A DNA stretch of 64,000 bases from Candidatus Zixiibacteriota bacterium (lineage in GTDB: Bacteria > Desulfobacterota > Binatia > UBA9968): the NCBI GenBank assembly GCA_035574315.1, contig DATLYW010000038.1, forward strand, positions 1 through 64,000. Reading direction: 5' to 3'. Shown one piece after another: positions 30,448-37,950 of the stretch (positions are counted from its first letter, which is position 1; every line of letters begins with the position of its first letter). The notes below the pieces were generated by a model. It was given only the letters and a program-made list of their open reading frames with translations, had not been told where the DNA came from and did no database searches. A program made the position numbers and the translations under genes.

Positions 30448-33400
30448 CTACGCCTTCAGCAGTTTCACCTTCGTGTCGTAGAAAACCGCGCTCCCGCCGG
30501 TCAGGTCGGAAAGGCAGGTGTTCTTGATGTGCGGATCGACGCGGAAAGCGGCGTTGGCGTGGATTCCCTTGTTACGGCGCGGGTCGCCAGGGATTATTTT
30601 CCCGTCTATGACGATATCCTGTGCCCCGTAAGCCCAGTGGCCGAACCCGAGGCCGAAAGCGATGACGCCCGGGCGGATACCCTGAAGCACCTTGACCCTG
30701 CCGATCATCGGGATCCTCTTGCCGTTCTTCAGATCCCAGACTCCTTCCGGGTTGGTCGCGGAAACGATTATCGCGCGCGAACCGTCCTTGAATCCCAGAC
30801 GCTGCGCGTCTCGGGCGTTCACGAGGATGGAGTTCTCGGGGAGAAGAGCCAGCAGCCAGTAGTCAGCGACGGTACGCGATTTGGTTTGTGCTATCTCCCG
30901 GTAGGTGATCAGGTGCAGGTCGTAGCCGTCTTTTTCGTCCCGTATAGGCCTCCCCAACGCGTCGGACGGCGCCGGGATATAAGTCGCGATGCCCGAATAG
31001 TTCTTTCCGGTCATCGAATTCTTCGTCCTTGCCGTTTTCTCCTGGTACAGGTTGATGAGCGTGCCGTACCGGTTCTTGAGGAGCGCGCCCTCGTAGCCGC
31101 TTGGAAAATCGTCGAAACGACCGCCGCGGTTGAGGACGTAAACCACCTTGCGCCACCACGCGCCGGCGATTTTCTCCCACCTCGCCGGATCGAAAACGTT
31201 TCGGGGCAGGTGGCGGCGAGCGTCGAGGAAGAGCTTCATCTCCTTTTCATCAGCGTCCGGGACCTCCTGGCCTGGTTTGTCCCCGGCGGCGAGGTTGGCC
31301 ACCATGCGGACATAGAGATCCTCCGGGCGCTTGAAATCCTTCCCTTCGCCGAATCCGCCAGGTCCGAACCCCGGCAGATTCATCCTTTCGGCGATCGCGA
31401 GCAGCGTCGCTTCCAGGCTGAGCGGCATCTCTTCACCGAACACTTTGACGGTCTCCGTCAGCGGCGCGATCACCGGCTGGCGCACGGGTTGAACCTTCCA
31501 AGGCATACTGGGGTGAGAGCCGGCCATCTCCCAGCGCTCGAGGTAGCTCAAATCGGGGAAGACGTAGTCGGCGTACATGGAGGTCTCCCCGACGACGATG
31601 TCGCTGGCAATGAACAGCGGAACTTTTTTCACGTCGCTCAAAATCTCGATGTTGGTGTGCCCGGCCGGCAAGGAGTAAACCGGCGTGCCCATGTAAAGGA
31701 ACAGCGCCTTGATCGGATAAGGATAGGCATCTCCGGCCGAAGGGACCACCTCCTGGTAGATGTCGCTGGAGAGCGGAAACCACGGGCGCCGGGCCGGATA
31801 GCCCTCGAAGATCGTCGTATCTTCGTACCTGGCGTTCGCTCGAATCAGATCGATGCCGAACGGGATCGTCTTGCCGCTCGTGAGTTTGCCGATGGGATAA
31901 GGCTGCGCCCACTTCCCTTCGCTGCCGTCAGGCAGCTTGCCCGAAAAGGTCCTGCCGCCGCCGGCGTCGAAGGTCGATGCCTGGCACATTCCCCCGCGCC
32001 AGTCATAGTTGCCGATCAGCAGGTTCAGCGTGAACCAGGCAAAGACGTTGTAAAAACCGTTCGTGTGCTGGGACGCGCCACGGTGGACATCGGCCGCGGC
32101 TTTTTTCCCGTGGCTGGTGAACTCCCTGGCCAGGGCCTCGATATCGGACGCCTTGATGCCGGAAATCTCCGCCCATTCCTCGACGCTCTTGCCCGACGCC
32201 TGCTCCCAGAGAACCTGCAGTCCGCTTTTTACCTTGGTGCCGCGGATCTCGGTATCGACGAGCAGGTCGCCCTCGACCGGATTTTTCTCGTCGTAAGCGT
32301 CGAATGCCACCGCCTTGCCGCCCGAAAGGACCACGAACGGATCGAGCTCGCAGCTCTTTTCCGTGCCGCTTTCCTTGTCCGTCCAGATCTTCTTGATCTT
32401 CGGTAGCCCGATTTCCGATCCGCGCAGGAAAGCGCCCGGGCTTCCGTCTTTCTCGATCTTGACGAGCCACGAGGCGTTGCACCAGTTCGGCTCTCCGTCG
32501 GCTTTCGCGGCGGCCTTGTTGGCGTTCTTCAAATATTTCTCGTCATAGCGCCTGTTTTCGATGACCCAGCGGATCATCGCCAGCGCCATCGCGCCTTCCG
32601 TGCCGGGCTTGATCGGTATCCACTTCCACGCCTTGGCGGCGGCCTTGCTGAACCGAGGATCGACCACGGCGATTTTCAGCCTGCCGTGCTCCAGACCATT
32701 CGTGATTCTTCCCGCGCGATTGGTCGGGCCGTAGTTGCCCTCGAACGGGGACGCGCCGACGAAGATGATGAACTCGCTGTTTTCCGTATCCGCCTGCCAG
32801 TAGAATTTCTTGCCGCCGGTCCACTTGTACTTCAGCTCCTTTTCATCCAGCAGGTACTGTTCGCTCATCGCCTTGCCGGTGAAATAGAGGGAGCCCTGGC
32901 AGACGGTCGTATGGCCGTGCGCGTTGACCGTGCCGAAGGAATCCTTCGCGAAGCGGCTCACCAGATCGCCCCGTCCGCCTTTGAGCCGGCCCCACATGAA
33001 GACGAACTGGTTGTTCTTCGGCCCGAGATCCGGATGGTCGGGATCGATCAGGAGATCAAGGCGATTCTTGTGCTTTGCCTGGAACTCGGCGACGGTCATC
33101 TCCTTTTTCCAGATCTTCGCCACGTCGGCGGACATCTCCTTCGCGAGCTGCGCGTCGGTCAAGGCCCGGATGGCGCGCAGGCCTTCCACGTTGCGGTTTT
33201 CCTCACCGGGAACGTTCTTGAACAGCAGCCCGCCGTCGACGATTTCCCGGATGGCCTGCTCGAAGGAGATGCTCACCCACTTCCCCTCGCCGCGTCGGCC
33301 CGCCCGCTTGAGCACCTTTCGAATGCGGTACGGGTCGTAGGCGCTCTGAATCCCCGCCTGTCCTTTGGGGCAGAGGACCCCGTCGACAGCGGCGGTCTGA

Positions 33401-33744
33401 AACGGCGAGCTTTTGTACGAGAGGTGCGGTGTCAGGTTCCAGGGACTGAGCGGGTTGCCGTCGATCTTGGCGGCCACGCCGTTTTGGATTTTCACCTTGA
33501 TGCCGCACTGGGTGTTGCACTGCTGGCAGACCGAGTAGAGTATCCGGTCCGGCCTGGCGAGCGCGTAGTCGCCCCGCGGCGCGAGATCGGCGGCTTTGCC
33601 TTCAGGGGCGTCCTTGAACAACCCCGGCACTCCGCCGGCCAGCGCTGCGCTGCCGCCCACCAAAGCGGCGGTCTTCAAAAAATCTCTGCGGCTCCGGCCG
33701 GGCCTTCCAGCCTCGGCCGGGCTCGATTCGTTCGATCGGCCCAT
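30448..33744 (-). CDS. Molybdopterin oxidoreductase, tetrathionate-reductase-like catalytic subunit
   Basis: A 1098-residue exported Mo/W-bisMGD enzyme. A Tat signal (SRRDFLK, residues 18-24) is followed by a 4Fe-4S site C-x2-C-x3-C (residues 73-80) with a fourth Cys in [18 protein letters not shown] supplies the Cys likely to bind Mo; [15 protein letters not shown] and the C-terminal GFGHWAYG block are typical of the long TtrA/PsrA/PhsA-like enzymes. Tetrathionate reductase fits best by size, by the order FeS - NrfD - Mo subunit and by Tat signals on both soluble subunits, but polysulfide or another sulfur compound is possible. ATG 33744 overlaps the stop of the NrfD gene by one base (TGATG). 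Confidence 0.85.
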
Positions 33745-34916
33745 CACGCTGCTCTCCCTTCTTTCGCTCCCGCAAAGCGTGCTCCAGTAGGCGCCGGCCC
33801 GCGGAGAAACGGCAGATACTCGACGGCGAGCACGAACAGCAACGCCGCCGCCGCGATCGCTCCGATCGCCATCAGCCACTCCATGACGCTCGGAAAATAA
33901 GCCACCGACAGCCGGTTGTGAACGAACGCCTCGGGGAGGGCGCGGAATTCCGGTACCGCCAGCCCCGGAAGCACGATGTTTTGCTTCGTCCCGGCGTAGC
34001 CGATGCCGATCAGGAAGCCTGCCAAAGCGAAGTTGAAAGGCCTGAGGCCCCACGACGGAATCAGCAGGATCGCCGGTAGGAGGAACCCGATGAAAAGCTG
34101 AACGATCCAGAAAACCCACCAGTAAGGGCCGAAGGCAACGAGGTGGTGAGCCTCGATGACCGCGGGTGTGCCGGCATATTGAGTGATCGAGTACTCGGAA
34201 AACTCGATGAGCACGTTGACTGCGAGGAGGCCGAGAATGAGATAGCGCAAAAACCCGACGGCGTCCCAATGATCGCGATCCTCCGGCCACTTGCGGAACA
34301 AGGTGAGGGTGAACGCCACGACCGCGACTCCGGCCAGCAGCGCGGAAAAAAGAAAGCGAATCGGCAGGAGCCCCGAACTCCAGTAAGGCCTGGCCCCCAG
34401 GACGCCGAAAAGCGCGCCTTCCCCGCCACCGAACGTGATGACCAGGAAGAATCCCAGAACGGACAGGGGCTTCAGCCAGCGGGATCGGCCTTTAGCCAGC
34501 GCGAGCAGCATGACCAGGAGCACCAGGATGAAAGCGGTGTAGACCCAGACCATCGCGGCAAGAATCGAACCGGGGTTCGGCTGAAGATAAAGCTTCCAGA
34601 AACGTTCCATATGGCCCAGGTCCGCAAGAACCAGGAGCAGGCCCGCACCCAGGGTGAACAGAGAAACGGGCAATGCGTAAAGGCTCGCGCGCCGTAGACA
34701 GGAGATCCCCAATCCATGATGGAGGAAAACGAGCAAGAAAGCGCCGCCGGAGATACCGACCATGTAAATGTACAGGCCGACCCACAGCCCCCACGGGATG
34801 TAGCTCCCGAAGTTGAGATTCGCTTTGCCATGGGCCAGCCGATCCCAGGCGCCGACCGCCCCCAGCAAGACCATGACCGCCAGGACCGGGATGAGAATTT
34901 TGGATGCTTTCAGCAT
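33744..34916 (-). CDS. NrfD/TtrC-like quinone-interacting membrane subunit
   Basis: A 390-residue protein with eight to ten membrane helices of the NrfD/PsrC family. It passes electrons between membrane quinone and the FeS subunit on the outer face. Blocks such as [16 protein letters not shown] and [14 protein letters not shown] are typical. The start at 34916 has AGGAGG upstream. It lies between the FeS and Mo subunits in one operon. Confidence 0.88.
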
Positions 34917-34927
34917 GGCTGGCCTCC

Positions 34928-35782
34928 TCAGACCAGGTAGTAAACGCGCGGCTTGGTGCCGAGCTCTTCCTTCAAGCGCATCGCGTTGGGCCTGGCGATC
35001 AGCTCGGAGACGAGACTTTCCGGGTCGTTGGCGTCGCCGAAGTATGTGGCATAGCCGATGCAGGTCGTCACGCACGCCGGAAGCATTCCGGCGTCGAGGC
35101 GATGAATACAAAAGTGGCACTTCCTCGCGTTGCCGACAGGGGACTTGTCCTGTTCCCGTGGCCACTCTCTCCCATATTCGTGGCTGGGCAGCTTCTCGTA
35201 GGGTTCCGCCCGCGGTGTGCCGCTCGTGTAGAACTCGCCGAAGTCCGCCGTGCGTGCGCCGTAAGGGCAAGCCGGCAGGCAATAGCGGCAGCCGATGCAC
35301 TGTTCGTAGTTGATTTCGACGATTCCGTCGGGTCTCTTGTAGGTCGCCTTCACGGGGCAAACAGGCACACAGGGAGGGTTGTCGCACTGGTTGCAAAGCC
35401 TGGGTAAGAAACGGCGGCCGACGTTCGGATATTCGCCGACCTCCTCTTCCATTACCGGGCGATAGACCACGCCCGGCGGCAGCTTGTTTTCCGCCACACA
35501 GCCTATGGTGCAGGCCGAGCAGCCGACGCATTTGCGCAGATCGATGACCATGACCCATCGACGCTTCTCGACCGGCTTGGCGAGGGCCCGGCGCAACTCT
35601 CCCTGCATGCGCAGGATCATGCTTTCGCCATCGGGAAGCTCCTCGAGGGGTTTCGGCGAATCGGCGGCGTCGACGGTCTCCGGCCTGGTCGCCAGCGCCA
35701 CCGCAGCCGTGGCGCCGCCGACTAACAGCTTGAGAAAGTCCCGGCGCTCGTGCTTCTCAACGTGTTCGCTTGGCTCGTTCAT
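34928..35782 (-). CDS. TtrB-like four-cluster ferredoxin subunit
   Basis: A 284-residue Tat-exported FeS protein ([11 protein letters not shown] near residue 14). Sixteen Cys form four 4Fe-4S sites: [40 protein letters not shown] and CHFC...C...C. It relays electrons between the NrfD subunit and the Mo subunit. First gene of the operon; AAGGA precedes ATG 35782. The upstream extension to 35836 lacks a ribosome-binding site. Confidence 0.88.
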
Positions 35783-36238: not shown

Positions 36239-36694
36239 ATGAAGGTTCTCGTCTCCATTGCAGCCATGGCGTTTTTGTTCACCGCGGCCGATTCCTACGC
36301 GCAGCGCCGTCCCGGCATGGCCTGGCGCGGCAGCGGGGGGTGGGGTCCGGGAAGCTCGTACAACCGCCTGTACGACCAGAAAAACGTCGAGACTGTCAGC
36401 GGTGAGGTAGTGGCGGTAGAGCGCATCACGCCGGGGAAAGGGATGTCGGCGGGCGTCCATCTCAGAGTGAAAACGGACAAGGAGACGATCTCGGTTCACT
36501 TGGGACCGAGCTGGTATCTCGAAAATCAGGACGTAAGAATCGAACCCAAGGACCAGGTCGAGGTGAAGGGCTCCAGGATTACCTTCGGCGGCAAGCCGGC
36601 TATCATCGCGGCCGAAGTGAAAAAGGGCGACGACGTACTGAGGCTGCGGGACGACTCAGGCTTTCCGGTCTGGAGCGGCTGGCGGCGCCGTTAG
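36239..36694 (+). CDS. Secreted protein with OB-like beta domain
   Basis: A 151-residue exported protein: signal peptide MKVLVSIAAMAFLFTAADSYA, then a Gly-rich linker and a beta-rich domain (VSGEVVAVERITPG, GVHLRVKTDKETISVHLGPS, DQVEVKGSRITFGGKPAI, AAEVKKGDDVLRLRDD). This pattern recurs in uncharacterised secreted proteins and suggests an OB fold; ligand unknown. GGAGG is eight bases before ATG 36239. It has its own exact sigma-54 promoter and is followed by the permease pair, so an envelope role in the same response is possible. Confidence 0.7.
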   Translation: MKVLVSIAAMAFLFTAADSYAQRRPGMAWRGSGGWGPGSSYNRLYDQKNVETVSGEVVAVERITPGKGMSAGVHLRVKTDKETISVHLGPSWYLENQDVRIEPKDQVEVKGSRITFGGKPAIIAAEVKKGDDVLRLRDDSGFPVWSGWRRR

Positions 36695-36851: not shown

Positions 36852-37376
36852 ATGATGAGCTGGTTGAGAAGAGAGGAGTGGCCGTGGTGGCAGGCTGGAC
36901 TTCTGCTGGGGCTGCTCAACATGGCGGCGTTCTACACCGCCGACTACTATCTCTCGGTGTCGACAACCTTTTCGCGCGCCGCGGGCATGATCGTGGGGCT
37001 TGTGGCGCCCGACCACGTGGCCGCAAACGCGTACTGGCAGAAGGTCAAGCCGATCGTGGACTGGCAGTTCATGCTGGTCCTCGGAATTCCCATCGGGGCT
37101 TATCTGGCCGCGCGGTTGAGCCGCCGAGCCGTCGAGTTCTCTGCGGCGCTTCCCGAGATGTGGGTGAGCCGGTTCGGCGAGAGCAACGCGCAGCGCTGGG
37201 GCATCGGCATTCTCGGCGGCGTTCTGGTCGGCTTCGGCGCGCGCCTCGCCGACGGCTGAACCAGCGGCCACGCCCTCAGTGGAGGGCTTCAGTTGGCGGT
37301 CAGCAGCTGGCTTTTCCTCATAGCGATGATGGCTTCGGGGACGCTGATGGCGCGATGGATCTTCAGGAGGGTTTGA
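36852..37376 (+). CDS. Half-size YeeE/YedE permease, selenoprotein candidate (Sec at UGA 37257)
   Basis: A 174-residue membrane protein of the YeeE/YedE (TsuA, PmpA) family. The frame reads GVLVGFGARLADG-TGA-TSGHALSGGLQLAVSSW, where the family has G-C-TSGH; the in-frame TGA thus replaces the conserved, functionally essential Cys. After it the protein continues for 38 residues of typical helix and ends at TGA 37374, one base before the next ATG. A 6-bp hairpin (GCCCTC, AGTG, GAGGGC) begins 12 bases after the TGA. AAGGAGG lies before ATG 36852. YeeE/YedE proteins import thiosulfate or related sulfur species through Cys-mediated contacts. A nonsense mutation is the alternative, but the same event in the partner gene makes that unlikely. 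Confidence 0.8.
37272..37287 (+). promoter_or_regulatory. SECIS-like hairpin after TGA 37257
   Basis: Perfect 6-bp stem GCCCTC/GAGGGC with tetraloop AGTG; the loop starts 18 nt after the UGA and has G as its second base, as in the bacterial SECIS consensus. Confidence 0.6.
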
Positions 37377-37377
37377 C

Positions 37378-37950
37378 ATGGGTCCTCTGGAAATCACCGG
37401 GCCGGCAAGGCTGGCTCTCGGGCTCGTTACGGGAATCCTGTTCGGGTTCATCCTGCAAAAAGGTCAGGTGACCCGTTATCAGAAGATCGTCTCGTTCTTC
37501 CGCTGGAGCGACCTTACCGTCCAGAAGGTGATGTTCGCGGCGATCCTCTCCGGCATGGTCGGCGTTTACGCGCTGCACGCGCTGGGGATGGTGAACCTGC
37601 ACATCAAACCGACGCTTCTCGCCGCGAACGTTCTCGGCGGTCTGATCTTCGGCGCCGGCATGCTGCTGCTCGGCTTTTGACCCGGCACCTGCGCTGCGGC
37701 CTTCGGTGAAGGCCGTCTGGACGGCTTGTTGCGCGGCGTGCTCGGGATCCTGATCGGCGCCGGGCTTTATGCCGAGGTCTATCCGTACATCGAAAGCAAC
37801 CTGTTGAAAGTCGGCGACTACGGGAAGCTGACGATTCCCGCCTTGCTGGGCGTCGAACCGTGGATTGTGATCGCCGTCATCGTCGTTGTCGGAGGCGCCG
37901 CGGTCCTCTGGATGGACCGCGTCGATCCGGCCAAGAGAGCCAGCCGCTGA
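37378..37950 (+). CDS. Half-size YeeE/YedE permease (PmpB/DUF6691-like), selenoprotein candidate (Sec at UGA 37678)
   Basis: A 190-residue membrane protein, second half of the YeeE/YedE pair. The frame reads IFGAGMLLLGF-TGA-PGTCAAAFGEG, where the family has G-Y-C-PGT; TGA again stands in for the conserved Cys. A further 89 residues of normal family sequence follow (GLLRGVLGILIGAGLYAEVY, then a last helix) to TGA 37948. A 9-bp hairpin with a GGT loop follows the TGA. AGGAGG within the end of the previous gene gives a spacing of seven before ATG 37378. Together the halves would make a full permease with two Sec in the substrate path, suited to polarised sulfur or selenium substrates. Confidence 0.82.
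37696..37716 (+). promoter_or_regulatory. SECIS-like hairpin after TGA 37678
   Basis: GCGGCCTTC pairs with GAAGGCCGT (nine pairs, one G-U) with loop GGT, starting 24 nt after the UGA. GGU in the loop matches the E. coli selB-binding loop. Confidence 0.65.

Follow-up and report, generated by a model that had tools for sequence, protein, structure and literature searches.

In-frame UGA codons, probably read as selenocysteine, at the two presumed relay positions of a split YeeE/YedE-family permease

The window analysed here is a single stretch of 64,000 nucleotides from the genome referred to below as G000. Two adjacent genes on its forward strand are, judged by their sequences, the halves of a split YeeE/YedE-family permease of the PmpA plus PmpB type, also known as YedE1E2 (Table 1). 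Half 1 is 174 amino acids long with a selenocysteine (Sec) counted at position 136, and its stop codon (37374-37376) lies one base ahead of the ATG of half 2 at 37378. Half 2 is 190 amino acids long with a Sec counted at position 101, and is terminated by a TGA at 37948-37950. In profile searches both halves matched PF04143 (Sulf_transp) well above the cut-off of 27 bits, half 2 with 61.7 bits. A genome search found no further PF04143 match in G000, so there is no spare Cys-containing copy of either half. Half 2 had originally been labelled a DUF6691-type protein. That label is not borne out, as PF20398 gives it 21 bits against a gathering cut-off of 27 and had no match in a search of the whole genome; the proper family is PF04143. 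AlphaFold models of each half, built on six-sequence alignments, were too poor to use (mean pLDDT 47 and 43).

Table 1. Features of the permease locus and its surroundings (positions in the window)
Feature	Position	Strand	Basis
Divergent TtrABC-like operon	30448..35782	-	best match TtrA 452 bits, below equivalog cut-off
Molybdopterin oxidoreductase of the TtrABC-like operon	30448-33744	-	
NrfD of the TtrABC-like operon	33744-34916	-	
4Fe-4S protein of the TtrABC-like operon	34928-35782	-	
Small exported protein, remote MamS-like C-terminal region	36242..36694	+	25 bits, far below cut-off; start estimated
Half 1, PmpA/YedE1-like permease half (C-terminal half of YeeE)	36852..37376	+	PF04143 86.5 bits; alignment to StYeeE 238-331
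UGA probably read as selenocysteine 136 in GUTSG, equivalent to StYeeE Cys293	37257..37259	+	alignment; known GUxSG motif
Putative SECIS apical hairpin of half 1, GCCCTC-AGTG-GAGGGC	37272..37287	+	published constraints; synonymous conservation
Half 2, PmpB/YedE2-like permease half (N-terminal half of YeeE)	37378..37950	+	PF04143; alignment to StYeeE; purifying selection
UGA probably read as selenocysteine 101, equivalent to StYeeE Cys91	37678..37680	+	ungapped alignment to 6LEO residue 91; TGY/TGA in all relatives
Putative SECIS apical hairpin of half 2	37696..37716	+	fits published bacterial SECIS constraints; synonymous conservation G000/G140 only

Direct reading of the window shows that codon 101 of half 2 is an in-frame TGA, and confirms exactly the predicted IFGAGMLLLGF-U-PGTCAAAFGEG as well as the 89 residues of family sequence beyond the UGA. 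Half 2 was aligned to residues 4-177 of StYeeE, the YeeE of Spirochaeta thermophila. The alignment places U101 on Cys91, without gaps at this site, and U136 of half 1 on Cys293. Together with the survey of relatives described below, it shows a single conserved Cys or Sec in each half, at the position of Cys293 in half 1 and of Cys91 in half 2. The GUTSG of half 1 conforms to GUxSG, the known motif of YeeE/YedE selenoproteins (PMC13188914). The motif of half 2 is GFUPGT, which does not conform to it.

The neighbourhood supports a sulfur role for the permease pair. Upstream lies the divergent TtrABC-like operon, whose scores fall far short of the equivalog cut-offs for tetrathionate, thiosulfate, arsenate and selenate reductases. 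In two other genomes that carry the permease pair (G220 and G260) it is flanked by NrfD on one side and a rhodanese on the other, and in G137 the pair is followed by a rhodanese. The gene of the small exported protein is a conserved neighbour upstream of half 1 in the relatives G140 and G127, and this protein may stand outside the permease system.

The machinery for Sec insertion is present in G000. Profile searches found SelA with 597 bits and SelB with 400 bits, and a tRNA-Sec with the anticodon TCA lies about 17 kb from selA, selB and selD on the same contig (C33). The selD gene (C33:71937-72863) adjoins selA and selB and contains one in-frame TGA of its own, so that SelD of G000 appears to be itself a selenoprotein (VKAAGUAAKL). 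Co-occurrence with SelA was not a discriminating test, since 75 of 80 genomes have SelA above the cut-off whether they carry Cys or Sec. A SelA search of two genomes with UGA in half 1 (G214 and G409, 98-99% complete) gave no match.

The codon at each site was followed through the phylum. Among members of the same family as G000, G140 has UGA at both sites, G127 (half 2 78% identical) and G136 have Cys codons at both, and G137 combines a Cys-containing half 1 with a half 2 that has UGA. A search of 395 genomes of the phylum with the pattern G-[FY]-UGA-P-G-T returned 83 sites, four of them in half-2 genes (G000, G306, G185 and G220); the remaining 79 were not half-permeases. G306, G185 and G220 belong to another family and all have Cys in half 1. 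With a seventh case in G260, five genomes beyond G000 and G140 have UGA at the half-2 site. A half-1 profile search of the same 395-genome set found UGA in half 1 to be common in the phylum. Over about 100 loci for each half, the half-1 site is 43 times TGA and 56 times TGY, the half-2 site 7 times TGA and 91 times TGY, and neither is ever anything else. No relative thus has TAA, TAG or an unrelated codon at these positions. The TAA/TAG flags raised inside genes by the genome search were gene ends and did not concern the Cys site. The original prediction had argued from the use of TGA, never TAA or TAG. The pattern itself extends to all of these loci, yet it carries little weight alone: of the three stop codons, only TGA lies a single base away from TGC and TGT.

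All four combinations of Cys and Sec exist among 98 pairs: 51 Cys/Cys, 40 Sec/Cys, 5 Cys/Sec and 2 Sec/Sec, counts that are not prevalences because TGA-bearing loci were fetched preferentially. The two Sec/Sec pairs are those of G000 and its relative G140. On a tree of 97 pairs, made by a quick method and with some long branches, the half-1 state changed at least 11 times and the half-2 state at least 5 times. Because UGA recurs in G140 and in five further genomes and is replaced by Cys in G127, a chance origin is unlikely, and this is better evidence than the hairpin described below. A selenenylsulfide pair had also been suggested for the U-P-G-T-C of half 2. It is not a general property, as, of the Sec forms, only those of G000 and G140 have Cys four positions after the Sec. 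The residue there is Ala in G137 and Ser in G220, G306, G185 and G260, and the U101-C105 pair was discarded as a conserved feature.

Downstream of the half-2 UGA, purifying selection on the sequence is strong (dN/dS 0.05-0.07). Between G000 and G140 the dN/dS of half 2 is 0.030 before the UGA and 0.048 after it. Between G000 and G127 the values are 0.058 and 0.067, and the longer tail, which varies more, has 0.146. The results for half 1 are similar, although its synonymous sites are saturated in one comparison. Within the group of G220, G306 and G185, the dN/dS after the half-2 UGA is 0.17-0.31, above the 0.03-0.05 found before it but still below 1. Elsewhere in the roughly 200 half-permease genes, in-frame stops were found only twice. 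One is in half 1 of G127 (L027), where TAG replaces a Trp codon at aligned codon 11; the gene may start further downstream, be broken or have been misassembled. The other is a TGA at a non-Cys position, aligned residue 54, in half 2 of G283 (L165, contig C85). It belongs to a Cys/Cys second copy of the pair; a Sec/Cys pair of this genome lies about 5 kb from it. In half 2 of G140 (L028/L010), similarity is lost after residue 147 and the frame ends about 40 residues early as compared with G000 and G127, through a frameshift, an assembly error or a real shortening.

Both UGAs are followed by hairpins that satisfy the published bSECIS model, each with a folding energy of about -18 kcal/mol. The half-2 hairpin is exactly as predicted, with GCGGCCTTC (37696-37704) pairing over 9 bp with GAAGGCCGT (37708-37716) around the loop GGT (GGU in the RNA; 37705-37707), and the spacing of 24 nt from UGA to loop is also as described. 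The half-1 hairpin has 6 bp and the loop AGUG, 18 nt downstream of the UGA. For calibration, a half-2-type hairpin was defined by at least 9 uninterrupted pairs, a G in the first two loop bases and a spacing of 16-37 nt. Such a hairpin follows 1.5% of all 1473 TGA trinucleotides in this window. A stem of at least 6 bp follows 18% of them, and a stem of the half-1 type is thus common by itself. The need to encode the peptide AFGEG accounts for part of the half-2 hairpin, and a 5-bp version of it is retained in the relative G127, which has Cys. In the survey as a whole, TGA is followed by longer stems than TGY (p = 2.6e-5 for half 1 and 0.038 for half 2, uncorrected for relatedness). Folding energy alone was rejected as a discriminator, as it did not separate TGA from TGY contexts.

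Synonymous sites bear on the same question. Over the 36 nt (12 codons) that follow each UGA, G000 and G140 use the identical synonymous codon at 20 of 23 comparable codons, whereas over the rest of the genes they do so at 94 of 220 (p = 3.8e-5 by Fisher's test; taken singly, p = 0.002 for half 1 and 0.006 for half 2). The same codons compared between G000 and the Cys/Cys genome G127 show no excess (11 of 23 identical, p = 0.63). A synonymous freeze limited to the Sec genomes is what is expected from an in-frame SECIS and not from coding constraint alone.

These observations support the main claim of the original prediction, a Sec at the conserved Cys of a PmpB-type half that is paired with a Sec-containing half 1, and the UGA at 37678-37680 very probably encodes selenocysteine in a PmpAB-type permease. 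If the UGA were a true stop, half 2 would be a pseudogene or a truncated protein of 100 residues. UGA does end genes elsewhere in G000, both permease halves among them, and the change from TGC or TGT to TGA is a one-step nonsense mutation. We nevertheless regard this as very improbable given the low downstream dN/dS, the synonymous freeze, the recurrence of TGA at this codon in G140, G137, G220, G306, G185 and G260 and the near absence of in-frame stops elsewhere in the half-permease genes. The chance that the codon is an assembly or sequencing artefact is next to negligible; G000 is a draft genome in 53 contigs, but the same codon recurs in independently assembled genomes that represent several families of the phylum, and two such UGAs stand within one operon. 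A reassignment or suppression of UGA as Cys or Trp would agree with the Cys found at this site in relatives. It is nonetheless extremely improbable, because the genome has the full Sec machinery including a tRNA-Sec with the anticodon TCA, TGA ends both genes normally and the RNA-level constraint downstream fits a SECIS.

A different alternative accepts the Sec pair and concerns the substrate. The permease may import selenium species such as selenosulfate or perselenide, with the Sec pair matched to the substrate and tied to the selenium supply. YedE-like proteins have been linked to selenium metabolism (PMC11582611, on M. maripaludis), and the NCBIfam families YedE/FdhT and seleno_YedE appear as weak matches. 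These matches are, however, far below their cut-offs, the sel genes are on another contig, the neighbours are sulfur genes of the TtrABC, NrfD and rhodanese types, and close Cys/Cys relatives share the same gene arrangement. We therefore consider selenium import unlikely.

A role in sulfur transport is favored by comparison with the characterised systems. PmpA/PmpB of Serratia and YedE1E2 of Cupriavidus pinatubonensis are likewise two adjacent half-permeases with one conserved Cys position each. Their halves have four helices, and a zero-valent sulfur transporter has been described (PMC10812762, PMC11582611). PmpB retains the Cys91 equivalent and PmpA the Cys293 equivalent, and a heterodimer has been proposed (PMC11582611). 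CpYedE1E2 is active only with both halves together, and Ser in place of either conserved Cys abolishes the uptake of zero-valent sulfur (PMC10812762). Taken with the alignment, these cysteine data suggest that a PmpAB-type transporter has just two relay residues and that the UGAs stand at both of them. The G000 pair differs from both systems in that both Cys are replaced by Sec and in having TtrABC-like reductase neighbours instead of PDO/ArsR genes. TsuA/YeeE of S. thermophila (6LEO, 8K1R) belongs to the same family by sequence, but consists of a single full-length chain that contains three cysteines and has a TusA-like partner (YeeD), whereas G000 has two chains. In StYeeE, Cys293, Cys91 and Cys22 are in line across the membrane and a thiosulfate relay has been proposed (PMC11073785). 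The third relay residue, Cys22, has no equivalent in the aligned G000 pair, as in PmpAB generally.

For the Sec/Sec pair we consider a relay-import mechanism reasonably likely. Sec would be put in at each UGA by SelA, SelB, SelD and tRNA-Sec by way of the hairpin just downstream, and the two halves would join as one transporter, a heterodimer by analogy with the characterised relatives. Sec136 of half 1, at the Cys293 position, would act as the outer acceptor and Sec101 of half 2, at the Cys91 position, as the inner one. A sulfane-sulfur species or thiosulfate would be handed from Sec136 to Sec101, with the selenol replacing the thiol as carrier. Compared with a thiol, Sec in general attacks faster, is released more easily and has a lower pKa. 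The relay and the direction of import are modelled on the characterised relatives. The substrate, perhaps thiosulfate or polysulfide made or used by the TtrABC/Psr-like reductase, is suggested by the neighbours alone, and any one substrate is less probable than the mechanism as such. A search of the G000 genome (98.6% complete) for the TusA/SirA family (PF01206) gave no match. Because TsuA-type uptake needs a TusA-family partner, thiosulfate import of the E. coli type is doubtful, and another cytoplasmic acceptor would therefore be required.

The half-1 Sec, in GUxSG, is of a known selenoprotein type. Half 1 resembles the YeeE/YedE family selenoprotein (PF04143, WP_012471001.1; PMC13188914), being a split half with Sec in GUTSG, and the Sec/Cys arrangement is common in the phylum (40 of the 98 pairs). 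In the catalogue of PMC13188914 there is one Sec per protein, at GUxSG, and neither the UPGT Sec nor a double-Sec pair is found there. We found no description of either in the openly accessible papers searched, and the half-2 Sec and the double Sec seem to be previously undescribed. The chances are about even that the pair forms an all-Sec relay, with one Sec in each half of a heterodimer and a chalcogen passed from selenol to selenol across the membrane, and that gain or loss of the half-2 Sec occurred on several occasions and independently of half 1.

A second Sec site, UPGT at the Cys91 position, would thus be added to the YeeE/YedE family, in which the two presumed sulfur-relay cysteines have apparently been swapped for Sec separately and, in one lineage, together. 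As a rule Sec is retained only at chemically active residues, and these swaps therefore favor a direct reaction of both relay residues with the substrate over a mere lining of its path. Standard annotation would truncate both halves at the UGA. Read through, the loci provide natural Cys/Cys, Sec/Cys, Cys/Sec and Sec/Sec variants with which the relay model may be tested.
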